Translations under genes and position numbers: made by a program
Virus record (IMG/VR): IMGVR_UViG_3300036846_001340
Coordinates: 1-21,969 of that record
Strand: one strand, 5' to 3'
From: a virus
Length of the DNA stretch: 21,969 nt
Notes under the pieces: generated by a model
Told to the model about the DNA's origin: nothing
Database searches by the model: none
Seen by the model: only the letters and a program-made list of their open reading frames with translations
Shown: positions 2,208 through 16,894 of the stretch, piece by piece
Layout of the letters: each line of letters starts with the position of its first letter
Position numbering within the stretch: position 1 is the first letter of the stretch

Positions 2208-2414
2208 ATGACACCCGTTGACCGCGTCGTCTTCCTGCCGCACAACGACCACCGCATCACCGCGGTCACTGTGATCGTCGACTGTGCCTGTGGCCACTGC
2301 TCGGAGGCCGACACCGAGGAGCTGGCGATCGAGGAGTGGGAACAGCACGTTGAGAACGAGGCGCATACTGGTGGCCATGGCACTGAGCGCCCGCCAACGC
2401 AACGCCCTACCTAA
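2208..2414 (+). CDS. Small CxCGHC zinc-finger-like protein
   Basis: A 68-aa product from ATG 2208 with a weak upstream GACGAG. The core DCACGHCSEADTEELA...WEQHVENEAH carries C26, C28 and C31 and two histidines (47 and 53). This resembles the short phage motif C-x-C-G...H-x5-H found in many small actinophage proteins. It probably binds one zinc ion; the function is unknown. The 3' end overlaps the next gene by 38 nt in another frame. The last 15 residues (GGHGTERPP...) are low complexity. Confidence 0.6.
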   Translation: MTPVDRVVFLPHNDHRITAVTVIVDCACGHCSEADTEELAIEEWEQHVENEAHTGGHGTERPPTQRPT

Positions 2415-2652
2415 GAGTGCATTTGCTTTGCACTCTGGCCCACGTAGCAACTGGCGCTACCCAGCACCTACCAAGGCCCAGGCACGCCGGGCCGGCATAT
2501 CCGAGGCCCAGCGTGGGCGCACTCACCGTGCCGCCCTTTCATATTCGGCACGCCGTAATACACGCGGTGCGCCGAGCACGGTGAGAGCGCACGTGGCACG
2601 CCGGCACCAGGGCGCGGTGCGCTCCATGCGTGGTGGTCGTGGACGTCGATAA
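2377..2652 (+). CDS. Basic phage protein with an N-terminal LPKSAFAL motif
   Basis: A 91-aa protein from ATG 2377. It opens with MALSARQRNALPKSAFAL and continues RYPAPTKAQAR, a pattern shared with small phage proteins of the DUF6582 type, which start with a leucine-proline-x-S/E-x-F motif followed by a YP/P-type segment and helical repeats. The C-terminal half is extremely Arg-rich (ARRNTRGAPSTVRAHVARR) and ends MRGGRGRR, suggesting nucleic-acid binding. The upstream in-frame extension to 2284 is a shadow of the previous gene. It overlaps the following HNH gene by about 23 nt if that gene begins at 2630. The family link is from memory of the motif, not from a search. Confidence 0.6.
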   Translation: MALSARQRNALPKSAFALHSGPRSNWRYPAPTKAQARRAGISEAQRGRTHRAALSYSARRNTRGAPSTVRAHVARRHQGAVRSMRGGRGRR

Positions 2653-2929
2653 CACCCGACTGTTGTGGACCATGGGTTATCGGCGACTGCGTCGTCTCGT
2701 GTTGGCACGTGACGGCATGGAGTGCCAGATACGTGGGTCACGATGTACGCACTACGCCACCCAGGTCGACCACGTCATCGCACGCAGCGAGGGCGGCTCG
2801 GTCTACGACATGGCCAATCTGCGCGCGGCATGCCGCACCTGCAACGGCGGGCGACGTGCCGGTCGGCAGCGACCCGGCAGACGGGGGGCTGGTTCGAAGG
2901 ACGGTGTGTTCTACGAGGTGCGCCTGTAA
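2630..2929 (+). CDS. HNH endonuclease beside the terminase (packaging-type)
   Basis: A 99-aa HNH nuclease if it starts at GTG 2630; ATG 2672 (MGYRRLRRL) is an equally good start giving 85 aa, because the homology-like region begins there. Key features are C32 and C39, the VDH motif (D47, H48), N63 in MANLRAACRTC, and a zinc pair CRTC followed by Asn. HNH proteins immediately upstream of the small and large terminase genes are frequent in HK97-type phages, and some are required for packaging-linked DNA cleavage. Position therefore suggests a partner of the terminase rather than a selfish homing gene. The C-terminus is Gly/Arg-rich. Confidence 0.88.
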   Translation: MVVVDVDNTRLLWTMGYRRLRRLVLARDGMECQIRGSRCTHYATQVDHVIARSEGGSVYDMANLRAACRTCNGGRRAGRQRPGRRGAGSKDGVFYEVRL

Positions 2930-3100
2930 ATGAAATCGAAACGCGACTCGACCAATGCCTTCGACCTTGCCGGCATCGGGTCGACTCCCATGCCGGCACT
3001 GCCGCTGGGTGGTGGTCCGTTTTTTGACAGAGGATGCGCGCTTCACCCAGGGCACACTGTTTGTTTTCTTTCGAAACCGCTGGTCAAGGGGCTGATCTAG
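2930..3100 (+). CDS. Possible 56-aa ORF between HNH and TerS
   Basis: ATG 2930 directly abuts the HNH stop (TAA 2927-2929) and the frame stays open to TAG 3098-3100. The product begins MKSKRDSTNAFDLAGIG and then becomes Pro/Gly-rich (PMPALPLGGGPFF). No family is recognised. Its first four residues equal those of TerS (MKSK) with different codons. The DNA has an unusual T-rich patch (3019-3025 and 3058-3072) for this genome. It may be a genuine small gene, a leader for TerS, or non-coding. Confidence 0.35.
   Translation: MKSKRDSTNAFDLAGIGSTPMPALPLGGGPFFDRGCALHPGHTVCFLSKPLVKGLI
3024..3029 (+). promoter_or_regulatory. TTGACA -35-like hexamer upstream of the packaging genes
   Basis: A perfect TTGACA lies in a T-rich stretch about 75 bp upstream of TerS. 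I see no good -10 hexamer 16-18 bp downstream, so a promoter driving the terminase-head operon here is only a suggestion. Confidence 0.25.
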
Positions 3101-3104
3101 GCCG

Positions 3105-3404
3105 ATGAAGTCCAAGCCGTTCCAGATTGGCCGCGTCGAGAGCGGATTGAACCGGGATCTGACGACGCGCCATGACATCGGTCCGGCCGAGCGTTCGGCG
3201 CTCCGCGTGCAGGCCCGGGCGCTTGACCGGGCTGAATTGGCGGCCGATCCCGACGCCGTCACCCGGGCGAACGCGGTGTACCTGCAGCTCCGTCAAGCTG
3301 CTGGACTCAGTGCAGGAGGAACCAAAGCTGTCGATGCCTGGGATTCGCTCATGGCCGACGTCCTGCGGGCCACCCCCGGCGATAGCAAGCCGGCGAACGG
3401 CTAG
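3105..3404 (+). CDS. Terminase small subunit (probable)
   Basis: A 99-aa protein from ATG 3105 lying just upstream of, and overlapping, the large terminase gene. TerS binds the phage DNA packaging site and recruits TerL. The product is mostly helical (ERSALRVQARALDRAELAADPD, RANAVYLQLRQAAG) and ends with a short WDSLMADVLRATP segment like the tail of many small actinophage TerS proteins. Length and position fit; sequence similarity is weak, as is normal for this subunit. There is little Shine-Dalgarno signal before the start. Confidence 0.75.
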   Translation: MKSKPFQIGRVESGLNRDLTTRHDIGPAERSALRVQARALDRAELAADPDAVTRANAVYLQLRQAAGLSAGGTKAVDAWDSLMADVLRATPGDSKPANG

Positions 3405-4773
3405 CCGGTCGACCTACGGCCCGGCCGCGGCCAAGCTGGCCGAGGTCTGCGGCAAGCCGTTCATGCCCTGGCAGCGCCATGTGGCCGACGTGGCGCTCGA
3501 GATCGACGAGGACGGCCGATTCTGCTACCACCTCGTCGTCGTCACCGTCCCTCGGCAAAGCGGTAAGACAACGCTGTTCGGCGCCGTACTCGACCACCGC
3601 GCCCTGCTCGTGCCGCGTTGTAGGGCCTGGTACACGATGCAGACCCAGAAGGACGCGGTCGACTGGCTGACGAACGAACACTGGCCGCTGCTCGCCCCTT
3701 TCGCCGACGCGGCCCGGCTGCGGCGCATGGCGGGTTCGGAGGACATCCGCTGGAACGTGTCGGGCGGCATGATCCGTCCCTTCCCACCGAATCCGACCGG
3801 CCTGCACGGCAAGGTCTCCGACATCGTGGTCATCGACGAGTGCTGGGCCTTCGATCAGATGAAGGGCTCCCAGCTCGACCAGGCCATCGTGCCCACCCAG
3901 GCCACACGCCCCAACGCCCAGGTCTGGAAGCTCTCTACCGCCGGCGACGCGGCCGCCCTGTGGTGGCTCGGCACTGTCGAAGCCGGCCGGGCGGCGGCGC
4001 TCAGCGGCAAGGACCGGGGCATCGCCTTCTTCGAGTGGAGCTGCAGCGACGAGCTCGACCCGACCGATCCGGCGTCCTGGCCGCTCTACCACCCCGCCTT
4101 CGGGCGCACCATCGGCGAATCGTCCATGCACGCGGCGCTGGCGATGCTCGGCCCCGATGACTTCGCCCGCGCCTACGGCAACAAGTGGGTGTCCATGGTC
4201 GACCGGGTGATCCCCGCCCCGGCGTGGCGTGACGCGGCCGATCCCGAAGCCCCGATGCCCGAGCGTGGGCATGTCGCGCTCGGCTTCGACGTGGCGCTCG
4301 ACCGCTCCGAGGGCGCCATCGCCGCGGCCTGGCGTGACGAAAGCGGTACGGCGCACCTCGAGATCGCCGACTGCCGGCCCGGCGTGGGCTGGATCCCCGC
4401 GCGTGTCGACGAGCTCGTCGAGCGTTGGGCGCCGCTCGCCTTTGCCTATGACAAGGCCGGGCCGGCCATAGACGTCGCAGACGTGCTCATGCGCCACGGT
4501 GTGGCGCTCGAGTCCCTCGACGCCAAGGAATACGCGGCGGCGTGTCAGGGGCTCTTAGAACTAATTTGCGGCACCCCTCCGACGATTCGCATCCGGCCCC
4601 ATAGCGCGCTCGACGCGGCGGCGGCGTCCGCAGCGCGGCGCAGTGTCGCCGACGCGTGGGCGTGGGGACGGCGCCAGAGCGCCACTTCCATCGCCACGCT
4701 CACCGCGGCGACCGTCGCGCTGTGGGCCTACGACCATGCTCCGGCCGCGCTCGGGGCATTCAGGATTTACTAG
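3334..4773 (+). CDS. Terminase large subunit
   Basis: A 479-aa packaging motor and nuclease. The start at ATG 3334 is chosen because an AGGAGGA lies at 3314-3320 and no other start codon follows for over 100 bases; further upstream the frame is a shadow of TerS. The ATPase half has an adenine-contact-like MPWQRHV, Walker A PRQSGKT (residues 73-79) and Walker B IVVIDE (about 164-169). The RNase-H-like nuclease half has acidic residues D319 (GFDVALD), D373 (FAYDKAG) and D427 (HSALDAAAA). Length is normal for the family. The gene overlaps TerS by 71 nt, which is more than usual. Confidence 0.95.
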   Translation: MPGIRSWPTSCGPPPAIASRRTASRSTYGPAAAKLAEVCGKPFMPWQRHVADVALEIDEDGRFCYHLVVVTVPRQSGKTTLFGAVLDHRALLVPRCRAWYTMQTQKDAVDWLTNEHWPLLAPFADAARLRRMAGSEDIRWNVSGGMIRPFPPNPTGLHGKVSDIVVIDECWAFDQMKGSQLDQAIVPTQATRPNAQVWKLSTAGDAAALWWLGTVEAGRAAALSGKDRGIAFFEWSCSDELDPTDPASWPLYHPAFGRTIGESSMHAALAMLGPDDFARAYGNKWVSMVDRVIPAPAWRDAADPEAPMPERGHVALGFDVALDRSEGAIAAAWRDESGTAHLEIADCRPGVGWIPARVDELVERWAPLAFAYDKAGPAIDVADVLMRHGVALESLDAKEYAAACQGLLELICGTPPTIRIRPHSALDAAAASAARRSVADAWAWGRRQSATSIATLTAATVALWAYDHAPAALGAFRIY

Positions 4774-9966: not shown

Positions 9967-10404
9967 GTGCCCACGACCCCCACGGTCGACGTCGTCGGCC
10001 TGCGCGCGCTGGTACGCGACGCCAACCGCCTCTGTGACGACGCCGGCCCGCTGAACAAAGCACTGAGTGCGGCGGGCAAACAAGCGGTCGAGCCGGTGGC
10101 CGCCCAGGCGCGCTCGAGCTATCCCCAGGTCTCTGGTCGCCTGGCGGGCAGCGTGCGGGCGAGCGGCACGCGCTCTGGCGCCGCTGTGCGTGTCGGAAGC
10201 GCCGCGCTGCCCTACGCCGGGCCCGTCGACTTCGGCGGCTACCCCGCGGGGCGCGAGTACGTCGCGACGGGGCGTTACCTATTCCCGGCGGCTGAGCAGT
10301 TGGCGTCGAGGGCGGCCGAGCTCTATGGCGCCGGGGCGCAGCGGGCCTTCGACTCATTCCCCTGGAGCAACGAGACGACCACAGCGGAGGCCGTGCATGA
10401 CTGA
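9967..10404 (+). CDS. HK97 gp10-like neck/head-closure protein
   Basis: A 145-aa protein from GTG 9967, abutting the preceding stop. It has the family pattern: an N-terminal helix (GLRALVRDANRL), a central SSYPQVSGRLAGSVRASG segment, VGSAALPYAGPVDFGG and the C-terminal YLFPAAEQL. HK97 gp10-type proteins act at the head-tail junction or as tail completion factors. Here the gene lies after the tail tube gene rather than before it, a modest rearrangement of the usual order. It overlaps the chaperone gene by 8 nt. Confidence 0.83.
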   Translation: MPTTPTVDVVGLRALVRDANRLCDDAGPLNKALSAAGKQAVEPVAAQARSSYPQVSGRLAGSVRASGTRSGAAVRVGSAALPYAGPVDFGGYPAGREYVATGRYLFPAAEQLASRAAELYGAGAQRAFDSFPWSNETTTAEAVHD

Positions 10405-10747
10405 GCCGTACGATGCCGAGCCGCCGACCCAGCAGTACGCGGCCATTTCGGCCGAGGAGCCGCTGCCGACGCTGGTGTCTGTCAGCCAGGCCTTCAGCGC
10501 CCGGCTGCCCTCCCAGCGCGTGCTCGACCTCATCACCAAGATCGAGGGCGTCGACTTCGCCGCGCTGGCGCAGAATGCGCCCTTCCGTATCGTCGCCTTT
10601 CGCGCGCTCTTGCGTGACTACCCCGAGCGCGACCCGACGTCGCTGTGGATGCACGCCTACGACGTCGAGGTGGAGGTCGAGGACGCAAACCCTATGAACG
10701 GCAGCTCGCCGACGCCCGGGCCGCTTTCTGCCGCTACTGGCGGATGA
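10397..10747 (+). CDS. Tail assembly chaperone G (short form)
   Basis: The unshifted product is 116 aa, starting at ATG 10397. The folded part (VSQAFSARLPSQRVLDLITK...) is helical and followed by LWMHAYDVEVEVEDAN. In tailed phages this protein coats the tape measure during tail assembly. The last 17 residues after the slippery site (MNGSSPTPGPLSAATGG) look unstructured, as expected of the terminated form. Position directly before the tape measure gene is diagnostic. Confidence 0.85.
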   Translation: MTEPYDAEPPTQQYAAISAEEPLPTLVSVSQAFSARLPSQRVLDLITKIEGVDFAALAQNAPFRIVAFRALLRDYPERDPTSLWMHAYDVEVEVEDANPMNGSSPTPGPLSAATGG

Positions 10748-10851
10748 CACCGGACCAGATCGACGAGCTCGCCGACGAGGACTTCGCCGCGATGGTGCGG
10801 TACATGGCCGCCGAGTCCGAGGAGATCGCTAGAGCGAACAGGACGCGCTGA
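10397..10851 (+). CDS. Tail assembly chaperone GT (-1 frameshift fusion)
   Basis: Read as 10397-10693 joined to 10693-10851 (the T at 10693 is read twice), the product is about 151 aa. The T domain has YERQLADARAAFCRYWRM, then PDQIDELADEDFAAMVRYM and EEIARANRT, a conserved-looking helical segment of the kind found in siphovirus frameshifted chaperones, with WRMTPDQID equivalent to the common W-x-P-x-E/D motif. There is no independent strong start in that frame (GTG 10645 would give an Arg-rich leader). The GT:G ratio usually matters for tail assembly. Its TGA overlaps an ATG at 10851, the ancestral tape-measure start. Confidence 0.85.
10687..10693 (+). promoter_or_regulatory. Programmed -1 slippery heptamer A AAC CCT
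   Basis: The heptamer fits the canonical X XXY YYZ rule in the zero frame (codons AAC at 10688 and CCT at 10691). After slippage the tRNAs re-pair with AAA and CCC. It lies at the point where the short chaperone loses, and the overlapping frame gains, protein-like sequence. No strong downstream pseudoknot was worked out. Confidence 0.85.
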
Positions 10852-10865
10852 TGGCCGGCCCGTCA
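10851..10865 (+). repeat. Abandoned tape-measure start (MAGPS), left flank of HNH insertion
   Basis: ATGGCCGGCCCGTCA encodes MAGPS and overlaps the chaperone stop by one base (TGATG), the classical position for a tape-measure start. The same five residues begin the current tape-measure gene at 11549. The last codon TCA (10863-10865) is the complement of the TGA stop of the minus-strand HNH gene. After these codons the frame is only a shadow of that gene. Confidence 0.75.
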
Positions 10866-11531
10866 CCCCCAACGAGCGGCGGCTCCTCGTTTCCCGGCGT
10901 CTGCACTCGTCGCCATCGGTTCGGTCATGGCCCGTTCGGCGGACCAGCCCCGATTCAGGCGTTTCTTCAACATGTTTTGGCTGACTGTGCAGCGGGGGTC
11001 GGTGAGCCATTGGTACAGCCATCTCGTTTCGCCCCAGGCCGTGACCGCCCGGCCGTGTCGACCTGGTTCGCCCTTGGTCCGGTTGTTCGCCTGCGCCTGT
11101 GGCGTGACCCACCGGCAGTTGGCCGGGGTGTAGTCCCCGTCGTTGTCGATCCGGTCGATGGAGAGGCTCTCGCCGTACCCGTTGGACAGGGCCCAGTCGC
11201 GGAAGGCGACAAAGGATCCGCGCCATTCGTCGCAGACGTCGATGCCGCGTGCGCCATAGCGCCGCCAGTTCCCCGAACGCGGATTCGAGCAGCGGTCGAT
11301 CATGGCCCGCCAGCACTTGTAGAGCCGGGCGCCCGACCCACTATGGCGGGTGACTCTCTCTCGCTGGTAACAGCCGCAGGACAGAGTCATGCCCTGAGTG
11401 AGGGCGTCTGTTCGAATGCGTCGCCGTTGCCCGCAGTCGCAACGACATTGCACGTAGTAGTGCCTCGTCCCCGTCTCACGGACGGGCTTGGTCTTGACGA
11501 CCAGCCGTCCGAATCGGTCTCCTACTCGCAT
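10863..11531 (-). CDS. Homing-type HNH/AP2-like endonuclease inserted at the tape-measure start
   Basis: A 222-aa protein on the minus strand, ATG at complement 11529-11531. The N-terminal part has a cysteine cluster (CRCDCG at about 29-34 and SCGC at 51-54). The centre has YKCWRAMIDRCSNP, a family hallmark, and the nuclease-like motif IDRIDNDGDYTPANCRW at about 125-141. The C-terminal RLNRGWSAERAMTEP is a DNA-binding segment typical of homing endonucleases. These genes spread by cutting DNA that lacks them. Here it sits opposite to the late operon, precisely between two versions of the tape-measure start. It has no role in virion building that I can see. Confidence 0.88.
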   Translation of the reverse strand: MRVGDRFGRLVVKTKPVRETGTRHYYVQCRCDCGQRRRIRTDALTQGMTLSCGCYQRERVTRHSGSGARLYKCWRAMIDRCSNPRSGNWRRYGARGIDVCDEWRGSFVAFRDWALSNGYGESLSIDRIDNDGDYTPANCRWVTPQAQANNRTKGEPGRHGRAVTAWGETRWLYQWLTDPRCTVSQNMLKKRLNRGWSAERAMTEPMATSADAGKRGAAARWG

Positions 11532-11548
11532 TCACCAAGGATACCGTA
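11532..11548. promoter_or_regulatory. 17-nt divergent spacer: RBS for tape measure, possible -10 for HNH
   Basis: On the plus strand AAGGA (11537-11541) is 7 nt before the tape-measure GTG. On the minus strand TATCCT ends 6 nt before the HNH ATG, the geometry of a leaderless start. The spacer therefore seems to serve both genes. The minus-strand reading is speculative. Confidence 0.45.
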
Positions 11549-13231
11549 GTGGCGGGGCCTAGCATAATGGTCAAAATTCTCGGCGACGTCACCGGGCTCG
11601 GGAAGTCCTTCACCTCGGCCGGCCAGAAGGGCCAGAGCGCCGCTCAGGGCATGCACAGCGCCTTCAGCGGCATGCTCGGCACGCTCAACTCGACCGGCGC
11701 GCTCGGGCCGTTCGGCAATGCGCTGCAGACGGCCGACCAGTCAATGCAGAACATGGGCGAGCACGCCAAGAGCACCGGGCTCAAGATGGCGGGCGTCGGG
11801 GGCGCGGCGGCCGGCGTCGGATTGGCGCTCAGCGCCCTCGGATCCAAGGACCAGGCGGCGCACGCCCAGCTGCAGGCGTCGATCACCGCCACCGGCCACT
11901 CCTACGACCAGTACTCCAAACAGGTCGAGGAGGCCATCGGCCACCAGGAGAAGTTCGGCAACACGGCGGACGAGACCCAGGGCGCGCTGCGCGTGCTCAC
12001 CTCTGCCACCCACGATCCGACCGAGGCGCTCAAGTTGCTCAACACGGCTACCGACCTCGCCGCGGCCAAACACGAGGATCTGACTTCGGCGGCGGGCCAG
12101 CTCGGTAAGGCCTACAACGGCAGCGCCCGGATCTTCAAGGAGTTCGGGATCGTCGTCACCAAGAACAAGGACGGCACCAAGGACTACAAGGGGGCGGTCG
12201 ACCAGCTGGGCCACAGTCTCGCCGGCCAGGCGAGCGCGTCGGCCAACACCTTCACCGGCCATATGCACGCGCTGCGTGCAGAAGTGACCGACCACGTCTC
12301 GCTGTTCGCCCAGAAGTACGGCCCGGCGATTTCTGCGGCGGGCCTCGCCATGGCCGGGCTCGGCTCGGCCATCGAGATCACCAAGAACGCGGTGAACCTG
12401 CTTAAGATCGGCCAGGCCGCGCAGGCCGTGGCGTCCGGCGTCGCCACGGCGGCGACGTGGCTGTGGAACCTCGCCCTCGAGGCCAACCCCGTCGTGCTCA
12501 TCGCCACTCTGATCGGCGTCGTGCTCGTCGGCGCCATCATCCTCATCGTCACGCACTTCAACACCTTCAAGGCCGTCGTGCTCGACGTATGGAACGCCGT
12601 GGTGGTCGCTTTCGACGCCATCAAGAACGCGGTCATGGTCGTCTACAACTGGATCGCTGCCAACTGGCCGTTGCTACTCGCCATCCTGACCGGCCCGTTC
12701 GGCCTCGCCGCCTACTTCGTCATCTCGCATTGGAACGACGTCGTGAGCTTCTTCTCGGGCATCCCCGGCAAGATCGTCGCCGCCATCGGTGATGTGGTGA
12801 ACCTGCTCTACAACATCGGCGAGACGATTATCAACAGCCTCAAGCGCGGTGCCGAGGACGCCTGGGGTGCTGTCGAGGGCTTCTTCAAGGGCGTGGCGAA
12901 CAAGATCGGGGGGTTTCTGAAAAACCCGCTGTCGATCTTCAGCCCGTCGCGGGTGATGATGGAACAGGGCAAGTTCATCATGGAAGGCCTCGGCCTCGGC
13001 ATCACGGCCGGGTTCAACCAACACGTCCAGCCCGCCCTCGACGCCACCGTCGCTGCGCTTACCCCAGGCCGAGGTGGCGGTGTATCTGCCGGCGGTGGCG
13101 CGCTGAGCCCGGCGATGGCGTCCTCGGCCAGCGGCCCGGCGGTCGTCGTCAACAACGCGCACTTCTCGTCCGGAGTGGACGTCGACTCCTTCATGCGCCG
13201 CGCCGCCTGGGTGGCGAGGAACCGGCTGTGA
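11549..13231 (+). CDS. Tape measure protein
   Basis: A 560-aa protein that sets tail length and is ejected ahead of the DNA. It starts at GTG 11549 with MAGPSIMVKILGDVTGLGKS. The Ala/Gly/Gln-rich N-terminal half is helical. Hydrophobic segments at about 258-275, 313-335 and 373-393 (PVVLIATLIGVVLVGAIIL, LLLAILTGPFGLAAYFVI) are typical of the membrane-inserting part. The C-terminal SIFSPSRVMMEQGKFIMEGL is a well-known tape-measure motif. The short length predicts a tail of roughly 80 nm. An ATG seven codons into the gene could be used instead. The gene start seems to have been rebuilt after HNH insertion. Confidence 0.95.
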   Translation: MAGPSIMVKILGDVTGLGKSFTSAGQKGQSAAQGMHSAFSGMLGTLNSTGALGPFGNALQTADQSMQNMGEHAKSTGLKMAGVGGAAAGVGLALSALGSKDQAAHAQLQASITATGHSYDQYSKQVEEAIGHQEKFGNTADETQGALRVLTSATHDPTEALKLLNTATDLAAAKHEDLTSAAGQLGKAYNGSARIFKEFGIVVTKNKDGTKDYKGAVDQLGHSLAGQASASANTFTGHMHALRAEVTDHVSLFAQKYGPAISAAGLAMAGLGSAIEITKNAVNLLKIGQAAQAVASGVATAATWLWNLALEANPVVLIATLIGVVLVGAIILIVTHFNTFKAVVLDVWNAVVVAFDAIKNAVMVVYNWIAANWPLLLAILTGPFGLAAYFVISHWNDVVSFFSGIPGKIVAAIGDVVNLLYNIGETIINSLKRGAEDAWGAVEGFFKGVANKIGGFLKNPLSIFSPSRVMMEQGKFIMEGLGLGITAGFNQHVQPALDATVAALTPGRGGGVSAGGGALSPAMASSASGPAVVVNNAHFSSGVDVDSFMRRAAWVARNRL

Positions 13232-14109
13232 CCATCGACACCGCCATCTCCGGCATGCCCACCTGTGTCCGTAAGGCCTGGCTCGTTCTGCCGAACACGG
13301 GCACCCAGATCCAGCTCGACAACCCGAGCGGGGGCTGGATGTGCCAGAGCCTGGACCTCGGCACCCCGGTCATGCGCACCGTGATGAACCCCGCGCCCGA
13401 CCGCAGCGGCATCATCGACCGGACCTCGTTGATGGGTGCGCGCACCGTGGTGGCCGCCGTCACCGCCCTCACCGGTGCCGGCGGTCAGATCGACGCCGTC
13501 GCCGCCAGCTTCGCCCCGTACATGGACCCGGCCCAGCGCCCGGTGCTCCACTACGTGCTCGACCGCCCCGGCGCGCCCGAGCGCACGCTGACGCTGCGCC
13601 CCGACTCCTACGACTGGCCGATTGTCGGCGCGGTCCAGCGTGACATCGCCCTGCAGTGGATCGCGCCGGACCCCGTCGTCTACGACCCGACCGTCAAGAG
13701 CGTGACCGTGGCCGCCGGGGCGGGCAACGTGCAGTTGAACAGCCCGGGCGACCTCGGCCTGCGGCCGGTCGTCGCGGTCACCGGGCCCGCCGGGCCCGCG
13801 ACCCAGTTCTACGTGGCGATGAACACGTGGTCGGCCACGCCCGGGCCGTTGCATTCGCTTGGCACCAACACGATCGCCTTCTTGTCGACCTACACGCTCC
13901 CGGCCGGCCAGACGGTGACGATCGACTGTGCGGCGCGCACGGCGAAGATCGGCACGACCTCGGTGCTCAACCAGATCGACTGGTCGAGGTCGAACTGGCC
14001 CGTGCTCCCCGTCAGCCCCGCCTATACCAACTGCGCGCTCACCGTCAACACGGGCTCCACCGGGGCGACCTCGGTGACGGTCAGCTGGAACGACGCGTAC
14101 TATTCATGA
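13228..14109 (+). CDS. Distal tail protein (Dit-like)
   Basis: A 293-aa protein from GTG 13228 in a GTGA overlap with the tape-measure stop. Position directly after the tape measure, an N-terminal beta-rich domain (GGWMCQSLDLGTP), the belt-like RSGIIDRTSLMGARTVV, and the mid-section RPDSYDWPIVGAVQRDIALQ followed by WIAPDPVVYDP match siphovirus distal tail proteins, whose hexamer caps the tube and anchors the baseplate. The second half is a beta-sandwich (LNSPGDLGLRPVVAVTGPAG ... NTGSTGATSVTVSWNDAYYS). Confidence 0.85.
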   Translation: MTIDTAISGMPTCVRKAWLVLPNTGTQIQLDNPSGGWMCQSLDLGTPVMRTVMNPAPDRSGIIDRTSLMGARTVVAAVTALTGAGGQIDAVAASFAPYMDPAQRPVLHYVLDRPGAPERTLTLRPDSYDWPIVGAVQRDIALQWIAPDPVVYDPTVKSVTVAAGAGNVQLNSPGDLGLRPVVAVTGPAGPATQFYVAMNTWSATPGPLHSLGTNTIAFLSTYTLPAGQTVTIDCAARTAKIGTTSVLNQIDWSRSNWPVLPVSPAYTNCALTVNTGSTGATSVTVSWNDAYYS

Positions 14110-15410
14110 CGACCGCCGACGGCTCTATCCCGCCCGGGCGAGGACGCTGGCGCCTGACCTTGCACAAGCGCCAGTTCGCCGACCAGGGCTGGGCCCAGAC
14201 CCAGATCGGCCTGCTCGACAGCGCGCGCAACCGAAAGCTGGTCCAGGCCTGGGACATGCCCGCCACCCTCACCTTCGACATCGACGGGCGCGCACCCGAC
14301 GCCACCACGGTCCAAGAGCTCGCCCACGACGTCATCGCCTGGCGCTGGGATGAGATCAGCGGGACCGACATCCCGGTCTTCCGGGGCATGGTCGAAGCGT
14401 CAGACGACCAGATCGACGAGTCGTCCCACGTCGTGACCTTCACTTGCCACGACTACCTGGCCATGTTGAACCGGCGTGTCTACACCGGCATCGGCACCGA
14501 CTACATGGGCTCGGGCACGCCGCCGGTCTTCGACCAGGACTACGCGGCGGACCAGTGGCGCCAGTGGGCGGGTGCGCCCTTCTCGACCTATCCGATTCCG
14601 GGCCAGCACGGGTTCTCGCCCGGCTCGTATCTGCCCCTCTACACGTTCCACGCCAACGGCAACGGGAGCCAGCGCACGCCACCGACCGGCGTGTCGCGCA
14701 CCGTGCCCCAGCAGGGCAACATGGTCGTGCTGACACAGCTCGACGCGTTGGCCAAGATGAGCAACGGGTTCGACTACGACGTCAAGCCCCTGTGCATGAA
14801 CGCCAACGCCAGCGCGCAGGTGGCGGTCAACAGCGCGACGCGCGACGCCATGCGCATCTTCTATCCCTCCCAGGGCGTCACCCAGAGTGGGATCACCTTG
14901 GCCTACGGCTCGAGTATCTCCAAGGTCCAGCGCCAGGTGACTGCGGCGGACTACACCAACTACTGGCGCACGATCGGCAACAACGGCAACGCCGACAACT
15001 CGGCGACCCAGGTGATAGGTGAGAACTGGAACAGCGACGCCACCGCCACGGTGGTCGGCACGTTCATGACCGCGGACTCGGCCAGCGTGACCTCGACCGA
15101 CACCGGGTGGCTCAACGCCGTCGCCGCCGGCAACGTCGGCAACTACGGGGTGCTCAACCCGACCTACGTACTCACGCTCACGCCGAACTTCTACACGTGG
15201 GGACTGTTCAACATGGGCGATACCGTGCCGGTCGTCATCCAGTCGGGGCGCCTCAACGTGACCACCGCCCAGCGGATCCTGGGCATCACCTACGACATCG
15301 GCGACGACGGCCAAGAGGACGTCGAGATCGTCGTCGCCCGCGCCACGACGACGCTTGGGGGGATGCTCCGGACCCAGAGCCAGGCCATCAACGCACTCTC
15401 TCGAAGATAG
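14106..15410 (+). CDS. Minor tail protein, tail-hub / Gp37-like
   Basis: A 434-aa protein from ATG 14106 in an ATGA overlap with the Dit gene. The N-terminal domain (WRLTLHKRQFADQGWAQ ... VQAWDMPATLTFDIDGRAP) and the following VTFTCHDYLAMLNRRVY are the pattern of siphovirus hub proteins, including the ReqiPepy6 Gp37-like group in actinophages. The second half is Asn/Ala/Thr-rich and probably beta-structured, ending in QRILGITYDIGDDGQEDVEI, also typical. It likely forms the tail tip with Dit. No peptidase motif is evident. Confidence 0.83.
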   Translation: MTTADGSIPPGRGRWRLTLHKRQFADQGWAQTQIGLLDSARNRKLVQAWDMPATLTFDIDGRAPDATTVQELAHDVIAWRWDEISGTDIPVFRGMVEASDDQIDESSHVVTFTCHDYLAMLNRRVYTGIGTDYMGSGTPPVFDQDYAADQWRQWAGAPFSTYPIPGQHGFSPGSYLPLYTFHANGNGSQRTPPTGVSRTVPQQGNMVVLTQLDALAKMSNGFDYDVKPLCMNANASAQVAVNSATRDAMRIFYPSQGVTQSGITLAYGSSISKVQRQVTAADYTNYWRTIGNNGNADNSATQVIGENWNSDATATVVGTFMTADSASVTSTDTGWLNAVAAGNVGNYGVLNPTYVLTLTPNFYTWGLFNMGDTVPVVIQSGRLNVTTAQRILGITYDIGDDGQEDVEIVVARATTTLGGMLRTQSQAINALSRR

Positions 15411-15421
15411 GAGACCCAACC

Positions 15422-15535
15422 ATGACGACCGCACCCGAACCCCAGGTGATCCCCGAGCCCGCACCCGAGCCCGAGGAGGAGCCGAGTCACGGCGGCGCCG
15501 AGGGCGACGTACCAGAGGACGACGGTGGCGCTTAG
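15422..15535 (+). CDS. 37-aa Pro/Glu-rich acidic peptide
   Basis: ATG 15422 has AGGAG at 15409-15413, and the frame ends at TAG 15533-15535. The product is MTTAPEPQVIPEPAPEPEEE followed by PSHGGAEGDVPEDDGGA, intrinsically disordered and highly acidic. No family can be assigned. It might be a virion linker, a tail-tip decoration or an anti-host peptide mimicking DNA charge; these are guesses. Its 3' end overlaps the ancestral lysin start and, by 3 nt, the opposing HNH stop. Confidence 0.6.
   Translation: MTTAPEPQVIPEPAPEPEEEPSHGGAEGDVPEDDGGA
15525..15535 (+). repeat. Abandoned lysin start, left copy of TGGCGCTTAG
   Basis: GTG GCG CTT AG at 15525-15535 would start a protein V(M)-A-L. Ten of these bases (TGGCGCTTAG, 15526-15535) recur exactly at 16110-16119, where the lysin begins ATG GCG CTT AGA (M-A-L-R). 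The stop codon of the minus-strand HNH gene (TTA, 15532-15534) lies inside this copy. Confidence 0.7.
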
Positions 15536-16089
15536 TGCCGTACCCGCTTCGACTCTCTGATGGCCATGCACGCCCGGCACATCCGGCTGTTAGGTGCGCC
15601 AGGCGGCCGATACGTATTGGCGGTGTCGTAAGGATGCCCGACCGGGCAGTGAGTCTTTCGGCCAGCGAGTCCAGCCGGAGACGACGAGCGCCGGTTGTTC
15701 TCCTGGTGGGTCACCAGCTCCATGTGAGTGACGTTGACGCAGCCTCGCGTGTTGCAGAGGTGGTCGACCTCCAATCCTTCGGGAATCGTTCCGCGCTCGA
15801 GTTCCCAGGCGACGCGATGGACGTAGTCCTGCCCAGCGGCTCGTCCACCGAGGCCGATGACGCCGTAGCCGTTGCCGTTGTTGGCGCCCAGCCAGAGCCA
15901 ACAGTCCTTCGGCCCGCCCTTTTGGACGCGGCGCCAGAGTCGTTCGCCGAGAGGTGTCATCGCCGGCCCGCGGTACTGGCACAGTGGGCACAGGCGTCGG
16001 CCGTCGGCACCTCGCGGCGTGTCCGGCGGGTATGCATGCCCGTTTTTGCAGGTGGTGACGACGTCGGCCCATCGTCCTTTACGTCCCAT
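15532..16089 (-). CDS. HNH_3-type homing endonuclease inserted at the lysin start
   Basis: A 185-aa minus-strand protein with ATG at complement 16087-16089. The core has CWLWLGANNGNGYGVIGLGG, YVHRVAWELERGTIPEGLEV followed by DHLCNTRGCVNVTHMELVT and HQENNRR: the standard HNH_3 pattern, with H91, D109-H110, C112, C117 and N119/H122. The core is flanked by two similar zinc modules: C14-x3-H18 ... C34-x2-C37 near the N-terminus and C148-x3-H152 ... C171-x2-C174 near the C-terminus. AGGGGA lies 11 nt before its start. It is not related in sequence to the HNH at 10863-11531 but occupies an equivalent position relative to the next gene. Confidence 0.92.
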   Translation of the reverse strand: MGRKGRWADVVTTCKNGHAYPPDTPRGADGRRLCPLCQYRGPAMTPLGERLWRRVQKGGPKDCWLWLGANNGNGYGVIGLGGRAAGQDYVHRVAWELERGTIPEGLEVDHLCNTRGCVNVTHMELVTHQENNRRSSSPAGLAGRKTHCPVGHPYDTANTYRPPGAPNSRMCRACMAIRESKRVRH

Positions 16090-16108
16090 CGAAAGGTGTC
16101 CCCTAAAT
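16090..16108. promoter_or_regulatory. 19-nt divergent spacer between HNH and lysin
   Basis: The plus strand carries GAAAGG (16091-16096), a possible lysin RBS 12 nt before ATG 16109. The minus strand carries AGGGGA before the HNH start, with TATTTA further out as a possible -10. The two genes share this short region. Confidence 0.4.
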
Positions 16109-16894
16109 ATGGCGCTTAGACGCGAGTGGATTGGCAGTCCAAACTATAGTTCCCGAGGTGGGAGTAATGTAAGATTATGTGTCGTCCACACCGCAGAGGG
16201 CGCCCGTACCTACCAGTCGCTCGGCAGTTTCTTCGCCAGCCCGAGCTCGGGCGTGTCGTCGCACACCGGCATCGACGACACCCCCGGGGTTATCGGCGAG
16301 TACGTCCGGCGCAGTGACAAGGCCTGGACCCAGGGCAACGCCAACCCCTACTCAGTCGCCACCGAGCTCTGTGCCTTCGCCGCCTGGACGCCGGCCGAGT
16401 GGGCGAAGCACCCGACGATGCTGTCCAACTGTTCGCAGTGGATCGCCGAGGAATGTGCGCACTTCGGCATCCCGCTGCGCCGTCTGAGTGCATCCCAAGC
16501 CCAGGGCGGCCAGGCCGGGGTCTGCCAGCACGTCGACCTCGGCGCGGCCGGCGGCGGCCACTGGGACTGCGGGCCGGGATTCCCGATGGATCAGGTGCTC
16601 GCCATGGCCGGCGGTGCGGCACCATCACCGACAGATTCGGAGGACAAGGAAATGATCATCTGCTCGACACCGAGCGGGCGCGGCTACATCGTGGTCAAGC
16701 CCGACGGGGCGGTGTTCGCCTACGGCGACGCCGCCTACCACGGGGGCGCCAACAAGGCGGGCCATCTGTCGGCCGGTGACCGCGTGACCGACGCCGCCTA
16801 CGTGACCCAGGGCTCGGGCTACTGGCTCGTCGCCAAATCCGGCGCCGTGTTCGCCTACGGAGACGCGCCCTACAAGGGCGGGCCCAACGCCTGA
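16109..16894 (+). CDS. Endolysin: N-acetylmuramoyl-L-alanine amidase with wall-binding repeats
   Basis: A 261-aa lysin. Residues 1 to about 168 form an Amidase_2/PGRP domain: REWIGSPNYSSRGG, then VVHTAEG (zinc ligand H27), SSHTGID, KAWTQGNANPYSVATELC, and CQH141...GGGH151WDC154GPGFP supplying the remaining zinc-site residues. It cleaves the link between muramic acid and the stem peptide. A linker (APSPTDSEDKE) follows, then two repeats, GYIVVKPDGAVFAYGDAAY and GYWLVAKSGAVFAYGDAPY, of a type common in actinobacterial surface proteins and probably binding the envelope. ATG 16109 is chosen because the frame upstream is a shadow of the HNH gene. The 5' end duplicates the sequence at 15525. Confidence 0.93.
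   Translation: MALRREWIGSPNYSSRGGSNVRLCVVHTAEGARTYQSLGSFFASPSSGVSSHTGIDDTPGVIGEYVRRSDKAWTQGNANPYSVATELCAFAAWTPAEWAKHPTMLSNCSQWIAEECAHFGIPLRRLSASQAQGGQAGVCQHVDLGAAGGGHWDCGPGFPMDQVLAMAGGAAPSPTDSEDKEMIICSTPSGRGYIVVKPDGAVFAYGDAAYHGGANKAGHLSAGDRVTDAAYVTQGSGYWLVAKSGAVFAYGDAPYKGGPNA
16639..16654 (+). promoter_or_regulatory. Internal ribosome-binding site and ATG within the lysin
   Basis: GGAGGA at 16639-16644 is 7 nt before the in-frame ATG 16652 (Met182), right at the linker between amidase and repeats. Translation from here would make an 80-aa wall-binding polypeptide. Internal starts that supply extra binding domains are known in some endolysins. Confidence 0.55.

Follow-up and report, generated by a model that had tools for sequence, protein, structure and literature searches.

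Probable replacement of a phage tape-measure gene start by an HNH homing-endonuclease element

Introduction

In the WHO elements of Torulaspora and Lachancea yeasts, a homing endonuclease gene is joined to a replacement 3′ end of the essential gene FBA1; the recipient's old FBA1 end survives as a fragment beyond the endonuclease gene, the host gene becomes chimeric without any splicing, and the new end has been shown to resist the element's own nuclease (PMC7282813). The mORF elements of fungal mitochondria, which carry foreign gene ends, are known from atp6 of Allomyces and from atp6, atp9, cox2 and nad3 of Glomus (PMC3630166). In phages, free-standing HNH and GIY-YIG homing endonucleases are known, such as the mob and seg genes of T4 (PMC2988022), those of Cluster J mycobacteriophages (PMC3706429) and those of HEG islands (PMC10448857), and ShiLan-type out-of-frame HNH insertions have been found in actinophage methylase genes (PMC11855218). 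Here we analyse a virus record of 21,969 bases with a siphophage-type late operon (the whole of which is hereafter referred to as the window), in which an HNH gene separates a remnant of the native tape-measure start from a rebuilt start encoding the same residues. Relatives have the corresponding empty site, the HNH gene and the rebuilt start are conserved together, and the arrangement recurs at three other genes, also in unrelated phages. Comparison of the sequences makes it probable that a homing-endonuclease element has replaced the start of this essential late gene, with altered codons that would block self-cutting.

Organization of the tape-measure locus

The ORF upstream of the insert gave no match in a family profile search, and its position and −1 overlap suggest that it encodes a gpG-like tail assembly chaperone (Table 1). 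It appears to be read by an ordinary −1 overlap, and the AAACCCT heptamer within the overlap is consistent with −1 frameshifting. The same heptamer is present in relatives.

A sequence-only reading of the window had described a chaperone stop overlapping the ATG of a first MAGPS copy as TGATG, a minus-strand HNH gene ending within the Ser codon of that copy, and a tape-measure gene that restarts as MAGPS at a GTG with its own AAGGA ribosome-binding site, and each of these elements was confirmed at the positions listed in Table 1. The HNH stop codon TGA is the complement of the TCA at 10863–10865 in the remnant. From GTG 11549, the rebuilt start reads GTG GCG GGG CCT AGC ATA ATG GTC AAA ATT CTC (MAGPSIMVKIL); the two MAGPS copies differ in 5/5 codons and have 8/15 bases in common, and the altered spelling runs on to about codon 11. 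As that reading had also held, this is not a simple target-site duplication, for all five codons of the right copy are changed and its closest match is another allele. The stop codon TAG at 11547–11549 overlaps the GTG and closes a 232-codon plus-strand ORF that begins at ATG 10851 and runs antisense to the HNH gene. This ORF is open both in the window and in the relative L002.

The 222-residue HNH protein is assigned by its profile matches to a phage HNH homing endonuclease family (PHROG 374, E = 1.2e-56; PHROG 3377, E = 1.5e-47), and it has no Pfam or NCBIfam match. The gene is under purifying selection (dN/dS of 0.085 between the window and L002). In a structural model (pLDDT 82.6, pTM 0.48), residues 64–154 align with the HNH enzyme PacI (Z 5.8, rmsd 2.7, 76 residues), a weak match from a list that includes unrelated rows; a Foldseek search returned no match at E ≤ 0.001, and a sequence search of solved structures returned just two matches, at E values of 0.34–0.37. 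Canonical HNH enzymes have a catalytic His at the motif position; the family alignment has DRIDND at the canonical motif, with Arg in place of His across the aligned homologues. Nuclease activity is predicted from the family only.

Two further small HNH genes lie on the plus strand of the window, at 96–320 and 2630–2929, and show weak similarity to the HNH region of IscB; the latter stands just upstream of the terminase genes.

Several other origins of the insert were rejected. An assembly chimera is out, since the 698-nt insert recurs in L002, which comes from another contig. An intein is incompatible with an HNH ORF on the opposite strand and a host protein that restarts at GTG 11549. Rfam searches found no intron match in window positions 10500–16500 up to E = 1, and none at gathering scores in two further HNH-interrupted loci described below (L011 and L020); on these grounds a structured RNA element such as a group I intron was rejected, and with the start rebuilt, splicing is not needed.

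Table 1 Features of the tape-measure and lysin loci of the window and of two further interrupted genes
Feature	Position	Strand	Remarks
Tail assembly chaperone, frame 0 (putatively gpG-like)	10397..10747	+	ORF; conserved in 80 loci
AAACCCT slippery-type heptamer	10687-10693		In chaperone overlap
Chaperone -1 frame extension	10645..10851	+	Stop TGA 10849-10851 overlaps ATG 10851
Native tape-measure start remnant, ATG GCC GGC CCG TCA (MAGPS)	10851..10865	+	Matches uninterrupted L003 start through CCGTC; in L002 too
HNH endonuclease gene, 222 aa, PHROG 374	10863..11531	-	TGA stop within Ser codon of remnant
AAGGA ribosome-binding site of rebuilt start	11537-11541	+	7 nt before GTG; aligns with AGGA at L007 chaperone end
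Rebuilt (probably donor-type) tape-measure start, CGTAGTGGCGGGGCCTAGCATAATGGTCAAAATTCTC plus codon 12	11544..11584	+	7/41 mismatches to L007, 2/36 to L002
Tape measure protein, 560 aa	11549..13231	+	PHROG 58, E = 2.9e-23
Native lysin start remnant, GTGGCGCTTAG	15525..15535	+	Overlaps upstream stop TAG; matches uninterrupted L002 junction
Second HNH endonuclease gene (HNH2; Pfam HNH_3, PHROG 826)	15532..16089	-	Stop TAA within remnant
Rebuilt lysin start, ATG GCG CTT AGA..., AT-rich synonymous codons	16109..16201	+
L011 tail-tube start duplication across HNH	2301-3489	- (gene)
L020/L022 methylase start duplication across HNH	2892-4364

Empty sites in relatives

IMG/VR yielded eight tape-measure relatives. 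Seven have no HNH gene and carry a single MAGPS-like start directly after the chaperone stop, and the eighth, L002, has the same HNH gene (97% identical) at the same position. The uninterrupted homologues expected from the sequence-only reading thus exist: the junction is TGATG in L003 and L006, TAGTG in L007 and TAG or TAA followed by ATG in the rest, and MAGPS-x-MVKILGD follows. That reading would have been contradicted by HNH-less relatives that never have MAGPS at the junction, or by both copies occurring without the HNH gene; MAGPS-type junctions are present in HNH-less relatives, and no relative examined has two MAGPS copies without an intervening HNH gene. Given these uninterrupted junctions and the lack of an HNH-free double copy, MAGPS-x-MV[KR]ILGD is taken as the ancestral start.

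Wider scans gave the same picture. The start pattern was found in 18 contigs, 17 of them without the HNH gene, and a scan keyed on the chaperone alone yielded 80 loci, in essentially all of which the chaperone is followed directly by a GPS-type (or SPS/SPT-type) start; the HNH gene is present in L002 alone. The tape-measure insert is carried by two contigs only, the window and L002. A search for host prophage relatives through the chaperone gave 27 pattern matches in genome contigs, none of which was a true relative.

Origin of the rebuilt start

The left remnant is L003-like. Relative to L003, the rebuilt start has 11/36 mismatches and the following 116 nt have 9/116 (p = 0.001), and a short foreign-looking tract therefore lies between two recipient-type flanks. 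Among 48 natural starts, the nearest to the rebuilt 41 nt is that of L007 (the same contig as L104), with 7 mismatches, and the next have 10 and 12; the median natural pair has 13. L007 shares the 15 bases CGTAGTGGCGGGGCC exactly with the rebuilt start, as well as AAA ATT CTC, and has its GTG GCG GGG CC, although it lacks the HNH gene.

The window and L002 have in common a 698-nt unit from the ATG to the GTG. Across the block at 10851–11584 they differ at 29/734 positions (4%), compared with 22/200 (11%) just downstream (p = 3e-4) and 15/200 in the 200 nt to the left (p = 0.06 against the block). Their left junctions are of different types, TGATG in the window and TAGATG in L002, and downstream of the rebuilt tract each resembles a different HNH-less relative, L003 for the window and L009 for L002. 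With low divergence in the block and differing flanks around it, the HNH gene and the rebuilt start behave like a single unit.

Together, these alignments support a donor-type origin of the rebuilt start. The sequence-only reading had gone further and proposed that the HNH gene brought the start with it from a donor phage. This is borne out in part: the similarity to L007, the divergent 36-nt tract and the block common to the window and L002 speak for a donor-type start, which may have arrived together with the HNH gene or separately and may derive from a foreign phage or from a synonymously recoded allele of the same lineage.

Recurrence at other genes

The second HNH gene of the window, HNH2, interrupts the lysin start. 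The uninterrupted junction of L002 reads ...GAGAACGGTGGCGCTTAGACGCGAG, and the window has GGTGGCGCTTAG on the left and restarts with TATGGCGCTTAGACGCGAG on the right. The rebuilt lysin (amidase) start shows heavy synonymous change over ~30 codons. The GC content of codons 2–31 is 0.53 in the window and 0.52–0.56 across the three HNH2 carriers (window, L183 and L184), and 0.67–0.72 in nine HNH2-less GC-rich loci; after codon 31 it is 0.67–0.70 in carriers and these nine loci alike. Two AT-richer HNH2-less loci, L176 and L177, have low GC throughout the lysin gene region compared. A minus-strand TATAGT is located inside the rebuilt lysin start, at window positions 16143–16148, and is also found in L183 and L184; it is possibly the HNH2 promoter. 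The lysin remnant is too short for the start-anchored scan described below, and the evidence for this case is the alignment with L002.

In L011, an HNH homologue (49% identical) lies at the start of the tail-tube gene. The left copy reads ATG GCA GTT ACC CGA GCA CTA and the right copy ATG GCC GTG ACT AGG GCG CTC; both encode MAVTRAL, with 6/6 non-start codons changed. The HNH-less loci L266–L272 have one tail-tube start, at the position of the L011 left copy, and the two L011 copies agree in residues even where these relatives vary. Identical residues with 6/6 codons changed would fit synonymous recoding at least as well as a foreign donor. In L020/L022, the interrupted gene encodes a DNA adenine methylase and has the same orientation as the HNH gene; its start, MKTPCSYYG, occurs twice, and 5/9 codons differ between the copies. 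L021, a near copy of L020/L022, has the right MKTPCSYYG copy only. In all three divergent cases (tape measure, lysin and L011 tail tube), the HNH stop codon lies within the remnant.

We scanned 148 HNH loci, some of them redundant, for start-anchored duplications of 5 or more residues across the HNH gene. The scan recovered the tape-measure, tail-tube and methylase cases and no others, and the null frequency was 2/12,000 mismatched flank pairs; start duplication across HNH genes is thus more than chance. None of 18 regions sampled from named phages with HNH homologues has the remnant layout, and the pattern is therefore uncommon.

Proposed mechanism and alternatives

Under the gene-start replacement that we consider probable, a divergently oriented HNH gene would have come to lie five codons into the tape-measure gene, with the recipient's old start to its left. 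The HNH enzyme would cut or nick the native start of HNH-less relatives, and repair on the carrier would copy the HNH gene and the new start into the recipient. The old start would then persist as the left-hand remnant, followed by a meaningless ORF, and the new start, comprising the ribosome-binding site, the GTG and the re-spelled MAGPSIMVKIL, would continue into the gene body of the recipient. The altered codons would spare the carrier from its own enzyme and leave the protein unchanged.

The re-spelling could instead be a by-product of plain co-conversion, in which a free-standing HNH gene moved from another phage together with a repair-tract flank, leaving donor codons with no protective role. 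Phage homing endonucleases are well known to cause such co-conversion (PMC2988022), L007-like alleles occur naturally without the HNH gene, and 533/1,128 natural pairs of MAGPS-type starts differ by 3–5 codons. Pairs in which all five codons differ are rarer (26/1,128), and an unusual natural allele is a possible source of the rebuilt codons, with no role in resistance. Co-conversion accounts for an imported flank. On its own, it offers no reason for the survival of the old start as a remnant across the HNH gene, nor for the repeated occurrence of a layout in which nearly all codons (6/6 in L011) are changed and the residues kept, even where relatives vary. We consider it rather unlikely.

Two readings that assign the rebuilt region another function fare less well. 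The new codons might have arisen mainly because the start region doubles as the promoter or leader of the divergent HNH gene: a minus-strand HNH gene within a plus-strand operon needs a promoter, and 3/3 HNH2 carriers combine a low-GC lysin start with the minus-strand TATAGT, neither of which occurs in the nine HNH2-less GC-rich loci. A consensus scan, however, found no sigma-70-type promoter around the tape-measure insert, L007 shares many of these codons yet lacks an HNH gene, the rebuilt codons of L011 are GC-richer than those of its remnant, and the HNH gene of L020/L022 reads in the same direction as the interrupted gene. At the lysin start a promoter role may contribute, but it cannot explain L007, L011 or L020; as the main cause it is improbable. 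Still harder to credit is a translation relay, in which ribosomes would restart at ATG 10851, read the 232-codon ORF and restart again at GTG 11549 (TAGTG), preserving coupling through the insert. The ORF is indeed open in both carriers, with its stop overlapping the GTG, but a frame of this kind is expected by codon usage to be open by chance in ~47% of cases and is probably meaningless, the rebuilt start comes with a ribosome-binding site of its own, and L020/L022 have no such relay.

A broader proposal builds on gene-start replacement: unrelated phage HNH nucleases may repeatedly have evolved 'cut and rescue', attacking an essential gene at its first codons and carrying a synonymously re-spelled, uncuttable version of that start. 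We put it forward tentatively, as a possibility that falls somewhat short of probable.

Discussion

If gene-start replacement is correct, a free-standing nuclease gene can provide a fresh start for the essential gene it enters and so settle there with no need for splicing, and the re-spelled start could make the host gene uncuttable. Both the nuclease target (the first codons) and the resistant allele would then be predicted directly from sequence, and short oligonucleotides could be used to test which targets poorly characterised phage HNH enzymes recognize. Start replacement would also explain abrupt synonymous mosaicism at gene starts, and it carries a warning for annotation, as, where two identical gene starts are present, the upstream one can be a remnant.

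The locus resembles the free-standing phage endonucleases in having an HNH gene beside essential structural genes, flank co-conversion and no splicing machinery, but the reports describe those endonuclease genes as lying between genes, or describe split or spliced genes. In the passages of open-access literature searched, we found no description of a remnant with a rebuilt start in phages. As in the ShiLan-type insertions of actinophage genes, an HNH element lies inside a gene without splicing signals; unlike here, those elements are inserted within the gene and read through in frame, with no duplicated start.

The closest parallels lie outside phages. Like a WHO element, the locus combines an endonuclease gene with a replaced end of an essential gene, the old end surviving as a remnant and the host gene being chimeric without splicing. 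WHO elements, however, encode LAGLIDADG-type enzymes and replace a 3′ end in a eukaryotic nucleus, whereas here an HNH gene accompanies a 5′ end with a rebuilt start codon and ribosome-binding site among phage late genes, and the resistance of the replaced end, demonstrated for WHO, is suggested here by the codon changes. With mORFs the locus has in common an endonuclease ORF beside a duplicated, foreign-looking gene end, a native end left as a remnant and largely synonymous differences (PMC3630166); mORFs differ in carrying C-terminal ends, LAGLIDADG or GIY-YIG enzymes and a mitochondrial location. Acting at 5′ ends, 'cut and rescue' would be a naturally occurring parallel to recoded rescue gene drives and to the yeast WHO elements. 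The phage locus thus has the duplicated, re-spelled functional gene end beside an endonuclease gene and the recipient remnant on the other side that characterize WHO and mORF elements, but the end replaced is the 5′ end rather than the 3′ (C-terminal) end. It is best read as a layout that works like a WHO or mORF element without being classed as one, a mirror image that would form their 5′-end counterpart.
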